Below are positions 18,021 through 19,338 of a DNA stretch of 64,000 bases, one piece after another. Each line of letters begins with the position of its first letter. Within the stretch, counting starts at the first letter, position 1. The stretch comes from Cyclobacteriaceae bacterium. Its GTDB lineage: Bacteria; Bacteroidota; Bacteroidia; Cytophagales; Cyclobacteriaceae. The notes beneath the pieces were generated by a model that saw only the letters and a program-made list of their open reading frames with translations, was not told the origin of the DNA and ran no database searches. The position numbers and the translations under genes are program-made. The DNA lies in the NCBI GenBank assembly GCA_025455015.1, contig JALONI010000004.1, forward strand, positions 1-64,000, read 5' to 3'.

Positions 18021-18761
18021 TCACGCCTTTTTCACCAGAAACTGCTCCAGGTCTTTCAACTTTAAGATCCCTTCGTAATACGCTTTGCCAAAGATCACGG
18101 CAAAGATTCCCATGTCGTTAAGGCGCTTGATGTCGTCTACTCCGCGCACGCCCCCACTGGCCAAAATGGACAGTTCGGGAAATTGCTGGCGCAACTCCTC
18201 GTAAAAAGAAAAAGCAGGCCCTTCCAATACGCCATCGCGCGAGATGTCAGTGGATTTGACATACTTCAGCCCACGGTCGTAAAAGTAGGCTAGGTGTTCA
18301 AACAGGGTGAGCTCGGCTTTCTTTTGCCAGCCGCGGAAGGCGATGGTTTTTGACTGGATATCGGTCACATCCGCGCCCAGCGTCATCTTCTCGCGCCCGT
18401 AGGTAATGATCCACGAGGCGAACAGTTCGGGGTGGGACACGGCTATGCTGGAAGCGGTGATGTAATCGGCCCCCGACTCATACGCTTTGCTGATGTCCCC
18501 ATCGGTGCTGATGCCCCCGGTAAAGTCGATTTTCAAATCGGTGTAACCGGCAATGGCCTGCACCACATGGTAGTTCTGCGGGCTTCCTTTTTCGGCCCCA
18601 TCCAGATCCACTACGTGTACCACTTCAATGCCGTGGTCTTCAAACCTGCGGGCCAGGTCAAGGGGATTTTCGTCATAGGCTTTTTCGCTGAGCGGATCGC
18701 CCTTGCGCATTTTTACCACACGGCCTTTGCGAATCGCAATGGAAGGAATTACTTGGATCAT
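18021..18761 (-). CDS. HisA-like TIM-barrel protein lacking the first catalytic Asp
   Basis: 246 residues, colinear with ProFAR isomerase HisA over its whole length (VVHVVDLDGAEKG, IDFTGGIST, KSTDISRDGVLEGP, ILASGGVRGVDDI, VIFGKAYYEGIL). HisA normally begins with PAID, whose Asp acts in catalysis (Asp8 in the Thermotoga enzyme). Here the segment is IPSIAI, with Ala in that place. The second catalytic Asp (GADVTD) and the Thr (STDIS) remain. No other his gene is near. It is either a paralogue with a different reaction or an inactive relative, so the symbol hisA is not assigned. Confidence 0.8.
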   Translation of the reverse strand: MIQVIPSIAIRKGRVVKMRKGDPLSEKAYDENPLDLARRFEDHGIEVVHVVDLDGAEKGSPQNYHVVQAIAGYTDLKIDFTGGISTDGDISKAYESGADYITASSIAVSHPELFASWIITYGREKMTLGADVTDIQSKTIAFRGWQKKAELTLFEHLAYFYDRGLKYVKSTDISRDGVLEGPAFSFYEELRQQFPELSILASGGVRGVDDIKRLNDMGIFAVIFGKAYYEGILKLKDLEQFLVKKA

Positions 18762-18789: not shown

Positions 18790-19338
18790 TCATTTTGCCT
18801 CAACGGGCAGCGCCACCAGTGTTTTGTCCCACATCAGCACCAACAGCAGCTCTTCTTCGTCCTTTTCGATGGCGATGGTAAACTGCTCAAATTCCTTTTC
18901 CTGTTGTACGGAGGGCACCTCTGCCGTAAGCACGTCTTTGGCCGGATCGCGGTTGGCCTGGCCATTGAAATCTACGCCCCACTGCCCGTATTCTGAGTTG
19001 AAAATAAACTGCCAGGACTGCTCGTCCGGCTGGGTGAAAAAACTGTATTTCCCGGCTTTCAATGTCTTGCCCTGAATGAGCAGGTCGCGATTGGTTTCAA
19101 ACACCGTGGCCTCGTTGGCTCCGGTGCGCCACACCTGGCCGTAGGGCACCAGGCCCCCGAAAATCACACGCCCTTTTTTGAACGGGCGATTGTAAAACAC
19201 GCTGATTTTTGTGCCATCGGCCTCGTATCTCACTTCCTGCTCCGGGCTGAAGGATTTGGTGTAGTAGAAGCGTATGAACAGGTAAGCCCCCAGCAAAAGC
19301 GCCAATAGGATGCCCAGAACGATGGTGAGTTTTTTCAT
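18790..19338 (-). CDS. DUF2911 domain protein, membrane-anchored
   Basis: 182 residues. One N-terminal hydrophobic segment (LTIVLGILLALLLGAYLFIRF, residues 4-24) acts as signal or anchor. The rest matches DUF2911 (ISVFYNRPFKKGRVIFGGLVPYGQVWRTGANEAT; LKAGKYSFFTQPD), a periplasmic Bacteroidota family of unknown function. Its stop is about 30 bp from the HisA-like gene start, so the two may share a transcript. Confidence 0.84.
   Translation of the reverse strand: MKKLTIVLGILLALLLGAYLFIRFYYTKSFSPEQEVRYEADGTKISVFYNRPFKKGRVIFGGLVPYGQVWRTGANEATVFETNRDLLIQGKTLKAGKYSFFTQPDEQSWQFIFNSEYGQWGVDFNGQANRDPAKDVLTAEVPSVQQEKEFEQFTIAIEKDEEELLLVLMWDKTLVALPVEAK

Follow-up and report, generated by a model that had tools for sequence, protein, structure and literature searches.

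A HisA-fold paralogue of the Cytophagales without the catalytic aspartate of HisA and with an invariant lysine on strand β6

HisA2: a conserved departure from HisA

The 64,000-nucleotide stretch of Cyclobacteriaceae DNA analysed here (the window) encodes a HisA-fold protein of 246 residues that has an alanine at the site of the catalytic aspartate of HisA and a lysine, Lys169, that is invariant in its clade, to which the name HisA2 is given here. The reading towards which we lean is that HisA2 is an old HisA paralogue, born of a duplication close to the base of the host's order, that functions outside histidine biosynthesis, probably as an enzyme that acts on a phosphorylated substrate and is built around Lys169 and Asp131. 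The initial annotation of this DNA had remarked on the missing aspartate; what is added is the invariant lysine, which is more telling than the loss of the aspartate, the order-wide extent of the clade, and its retention in genomes without his and trp genes. How duplicated genes acquire new functions has been studied with HisA as a model enzyme, and its position 169 is known to act as a switch when the enzyme is evolved in the laboratory. Nature seems to have run a comparable experiment at that position in HisA2, which is old and strongly conserved and appears to work outside the synthesis of histidine and of tryptophan.

The gene and the codons on which the argument turns are these:

18021-18761, minus strand: hisA2, HisA-fold paralogue of 246 amino acids (stop codon within the coordinates)
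18735-18737, minus strand: codon of Ala9 (GCG), the HisA catalytic Asp site (Asp7 in Salmonella HisA, Asp8 in that of T. maritima); never Asp or Glu in 140 clade members
18369-18371, minus strand: codon of Asp131 (GAT), equivalent to Salmonella HisA Asp129; invariant in HisA and HisA2
18327-18329, minus strand: codon of Trp145, the ProFAR-stacking residue of HisA (role from PMC9088769); kept in 46 of 51 HisA2
18255-18257, minus strand: codon of Lys169 (AAA), the clade-specific invariant lysine of strand β6, Leu169 in Salmonella HisA (placed by alignment and by strand 167-172 of the model)
18234-18236, minus strand: codon of Asp176, the loop-6 catalytic Asp of HisA (role from PMC9088769); kept in 44 of 51 HisA2

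Relation to HisA

The hisA2 reading frame starts with ATG and is intact. Its product matches Pfam His_biosynth over its full length (199 bits), and its residues 4-238 align to Salmonella HisA structures with one two-residue indel, so that the initial assignment of the whole length to HisA stands as a statement of homology. Scored against NCBIfam TIGR00007 (HisA), the window protein reaches 196 bits, under the curated cut-off of 228.95 bits, and other HisA2 proteins reach 184-198 bits, all seven tested falling under that cut-off; the HisA of the same genome's his operon scores 260 bits. Residues 4-10 of the window protein are VIPSIAI, and Ala9 falls on Salmonella Asp7, which bears out the original reading of IPSIAI as a motif with Ala for the catalytic Asp.

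Active-site residues

Residues were compared between 51 non-redundant HisA2 and 13 HisA sequences, with the Asp7 site, Asp131 and Lys169 followed over all 140 HisA2. The β1 aspartate is present in 13 of 13 HisA and in none of the 140 HisA2, in which glutamate is equally absent. The site is held by S, A, T, W, Y, I, P, F or L in the set of 51, with V added among all 140 (ten residues), and by conservation within HisA2 it comes only 187th among 246 positions. Lys169 is present in 140 of 140 HisA2, the corresponding residue of HisA being I, L or T; Asp131 is likewise present in every one of the 140. The glycines of the phosphate site (82, 83, 203 and 204) are invariant in the 51 HisA2 compared, Arg206, which follows the β7 SGGV motif, is found in 42 of the 51, and Ser7 in 43 of the 51, at a position that is Ala in HisA (A5, which becomes Ser7 in the window protein).

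The initial claim that the other active-site residues remain is therefore right in part. Asp131, Trp145, Thr171, Asp172, Asp176 and the Gly203-Gly204 phosphate site are retained in the window protein; site 169, which is now Lys, Ser7 and the distal-phosphate region are changed, the last by G79 to Thr81, R/Q/K83 to Ser85 and G102 to Ser104. In HisA, the distal phosphate of ProFAR is gripped by R83 and S103 (PMC9088769); in HisA2 position 83 varies and position 103 is S or T in nearly all members. Since true HisA proteins of the order have Q or K at position 83, a change there is not diagnostic by itself. Some HisA2 members have Ala at the G102 site. In one family (f4: L042, L189, L190, L191) the Trp145 site is occupied by Arg, the same change as the W145R that arose in Salmonella HisA evolution.

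Structure and proposed mechanism

The AlphaFold2 model of the window protein (pLDDT 92.6) has the HisA barrel fold, its best Foldseek match being Salmonella HisA (TM 0.93), with Lys169 on strand 167-172. In Salmonella HisA the L169R substitution abolishes HisA activity and confers TrpF activity (PMC7591586), and in simulations of that variant Arg169 contacts Asp129 and the substrate carboxylate (PMC9088769); site 169 thus faces the active site beside Asp129. By analogy, Lys169 of HisA2 very likely lies in the active site and pairs there with Asp131.

A mechanism can be sketched on this basis. The phosphate of the HisA2 substrate would be held at the C-terminal site (Gly203-Gly204 and Gly225-Lys226), and a substrate carbonyl or carboxylate would be positioned near Lys169, which, tuned by Asp131, may be the reactive group that replaces Asp7. 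Lys169 could either form a Schiff base, as the β6 lysine does in DERA-type aldolases, or supply a fixed positive charge, as Arg169 does in HisA L169R, with Asp176 a candidate acid or base. Such a site would not be expected to carry out the Amadori rearrangement of ProFAR in the way that HisA does. The β6 lysine of DERA forms the imine, and a profile alignment places Lys169 over it ('YVKSTD' over 'FVKTST'), as a weak match with an hhalign probability of 42% and a small template profile. The more ambitious proposition, that loss of the β1 aspartate and gain of the β6 lysine converted an acid-base Amadori isomerase into a Schiff-base (imine-forming) enzyme serving a conserved pathway in Cytophagales, is speculative and rather unlikely.

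Distribution, history and selection

Within the genus, hisA2 is found in 34 of the 36 other genomes, with 74-86% identity; the two that lack it are 77% and 87% complete. A profile search of Cytophagales gives a strong match in 101 of 292 genomes; at the weak end, a few of these (L195, L199, L200) are true HisA with PAID. Among the organisms behind the best 80 matches in named genomes are Chryseolinea serpens, Ohtaekwangia koreensis, Dawidia, Chryseosolibacter, Parachryseolinea and Fulvivirga, all of which we take, going by the record names, to be Cytophagales. In class-wide and phylum-wide samples strong matches that have the variant come from the host's own family only, and every match inspected outside Cytophagales is a true HisA with the Asp. 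One further His_biosynth match (G040:C1:4897316-4897956) runs across two frames and is perhaps a broken extra paralogue; three His_biosynth genes from genomes of the order (L275 383-1132, L276 317-1105 and L277 335-1093) are WbuZ/AglZ-HisF2-like and not HisA-like, two of the three falling under the curated cut-offs.

In a tree of 86 rows all HisA2 form one clade (SH-aLRT 100, stem 0.39) nested within the HisA diversity of Bacteroidota and mostly grouped by host family, its deeper branches being weakly supported. As far as sequences can tell, this pattern fits a single duplication, after which the gene was inherited vertically and lost in places. We found no second HisA described for these bacteria in the open literature; the passages on his genes that a keyword search brings up in a study of 91 strains of the superphylum mention extra hisF and hisH copies and no second hisA (PMC8305728).

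HisA2 is not a decaying gene: purifying selection acts on it more strongly than on the HisA of the same cell. Among 21 genomes of the genus mean pairwise identity is 81% for HisA2 and 67% for the operon HisA, HisA2 having the higher value in 210 of 210 genome pairs (which are not independent of one another). Its dN/dS is ~0.03 in five unsaturated pairs, synonymous sites being mostly saturated elsewhere. Order-wide conservation and purifying selection rule out a sequencing error or a degraded copy as the source of the variant. Conservation of this strength suggests that these bacteria have an important reaction or regulator that has so far escaped recognition.

Gene neighbourhood and the possibility of a non-catalytic role

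The nearest upstream gene of hisA2 in the window lies on the same strand, 28 bp away:

18790-19338, minus strand: DUF2911 protein gene

The two are possibly co-transcribed in the window. Their adjacency is not conserved beyond near relatives; in most of the genus the DUF2911 gene is near and not adjacent. No order-wide partner of hisA2 was found, DUF2911, lysA, purM, purK, trpA and a response regulator each occurring beside it in some lineages (most neighbours in relatives were named by reading their sequences, not by family search). The gene is followed by purM in the Ohtaekwangia group and by purK in f8. A lysA (diaminopimelate-decarboxylase-like) gene is divergent to it in families f5, f9 and f15 (L041, L047, L184, L185, L198). 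In f16 (L193, L194, L196) hisA2 follows trpA directly and closes the trp operon, which also contains trpF. In f8 and some of f1 (L053, L203, L165, L166, L205, L206) a response regulator is directly upstream of hisA2, preceded by a histidine kinase.

These surroundings bear on the strongest alternative to an enzyme, a non-catalytic HisA2 that binds a phosphorylated metabolite through the HisA phosphate sites and, as a sensor or regulator, signals to another protein. A catalytic Asp site that is free to vary next to phosphate-binding glycines that are kept is what such a pseudoenzyme might show; hisA2 usually stands outside any conserved pathway operon, and two-component genes adjoin it in f8 and in some of the host's family. 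The kinase neighbour is, however, confined to a few lineages, no extra domain is seen in HisA2, and a pair of invariant charged residues in the pocket, Lys169 and Asp131, is more typical of catalysis, although it could still bind a ligand. We regard the pseudoenzyme as somewhat unlikely, yet as a contender to be taken seriously.

Histidine and tryptophan genes in HisA2 genomes

The initial annotation saw no his operon near the gene. There is one elsewhere in the genome: eight open reading frames on a separate contig (C149), seven of them assigned by Pfam (HisG, HisD, a HisC-type aminotransferase, HisB, HisA, HisF and HisI) and the eighth, in the place of hisH, giving no Pfam match at the strict threshold used. 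The HisA of this operon has the motif PAIDI, so that the other, PAID-bearing hisA that was thought worth looking for does exist, and the notion that HisA2 substitutes for a missing HisA is ruled out. The same genome has trpF and trpC on C65, and no case in which HisA2 might replace a missing TrpF was met among the genomes tested.

HisA2 is not bound to the rest of the his pathway. Eight of the 33 HisA2 genomes searched (G041, G043, G045, G078, G173, G193, G210, G236) have no HisD, HisA or canonical HisF, the extra His_biosynth gene of G041 being WbuZ/HisF2-like; G152, which has HisA and HisF and no HisD, is left out of this count. Four of the eight (G043, G045, G173, G236) are without trpC as well, three of these without trpF and G236 with a marginal trpF match only. 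The cleanest case is G045, a single 3.3-Mb contig estimated to be 98% complete; G173 is only 63% complete. Both trpC and trpF are present in G000, G041, G078, G193 and G139, and G210 has trpC.

The presence of canonical HisA and of trpF and trpC, the higher conservation of HisA2 and its retention without his genes indicate that HisA2 is not a redundant ProFAR isomerase, nor a copy in decay. Judged from its sequences, the job of HisA2 almost certainly differs from that of HisA. The original suggestion of a paralogue with a new role gains support from the separate clade, from conservation above that of HisA and from retention without his genes; that the novelty is a new substrate, as against a non-enzymatic role, is what we infer. 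A practical caution follows: not every His_biosynth match is a HisA, and where his genes have been lost HisA2 could be miscounted as evidence of the pathway.

The same inventory weighs on the proposal that HisA2 catalyses the TrpF reaction (phosphoribosylanthranilate isomerization), in the manner of laboratory-evolved HisA L169R or of PriA. Lys169 does occupy the site at which L169R creates TrpF activity; some HisA2 have Ala at the G102 site (compare the G102A variants in the PDB) or Arg at the Trp145 site, and W145R also conferred TrpF activity on Salmonella HisA (PMC7591586); in f16 the gene ends the trp operon. Yet a clear trpF is present in 30 of the 34 HisA2 genomes tested and a marginal one in another, and the three without any (G043, G045, G173) are without trpC too. 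The β1 catalytic residue, Asp in PriA and Cys in TrpF, is lost (Ala9 in the window protein), whereas SubTrpF2, a TrpF-specialised paralogue, is described with Asp11, Asp130 and Asp175 conserved (PMC13055916). A TrpF function is improbable.

That HisA2 might be a second working HisA with another residue as its base is more improbable still. In its favour, Trp145, Asp131 and Asp176 are mostly kept, but canonical HisA is present, HisA2 persists where HisD and canonical HisF are missing, all seven HisA2 tested fall under the TIGR00007 cut-off, and L169R abolishes Salmonella HisA activity (PMC7591586). Sugar amidation of the HisF/WbuZ type is ruled out by scores far under the cut-offs.

Comparison with known systems

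HisA itself (TIGR00007; Salmonella structures 5a5w, 5abt and 5ahe) shares with HisA2 its fold, a near gap-free full-length alignment and equivalents of Asp129, Trp145, Asp176 and the phosphate-site glycines; HisA2 differs in lacking Asp7 in all members, in its invariant Lys169, in its changed distal-phosphate gripper positions and in its independence of the histidine pathway. Laboratory-evolved Salmonella HisA L169R (PDB 5g2h; PMC7591586, PMC9088769) resembles HisA2 in placing a basic residue at 169 beside Asp129; it has TrpF activity and an unchanged Asp7, whereas HisA2 is without Asp7 and most of its hosts have trpF. The PriA-derived SubTrpF2 and AdeK of Actinomycetota are, like HisA2, HisA-family paralogues whose function changed after duplication, but they belong to a different phylum, and the changes described in them lie mainly at substrate-binding residues, with TrpF or HisA activity kept (PMC13055916). 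WbuZ and AglZ-HisF2 (TIGR03572, NF038364), found in some of the same genomes, are another instance of a HisA/HisF fold recruited outside histidine synthesis; they are HisF-like and act in sugar amidation, and the window protein scores 61-68 bits against their cut-offs of ~300. The DERA-type class I aldolases (DeoC) share with HisA2 a TIM barrel with a lysine on β6 ('FVKTSTG') and 'ASGG' on β7, at similar spacings (31 and 33 residues). Their similarity to HisA2 is remote, as the hhalign value given above indicates, and the Schiff base, which DERA forms, is in HisA2 a proposal only.
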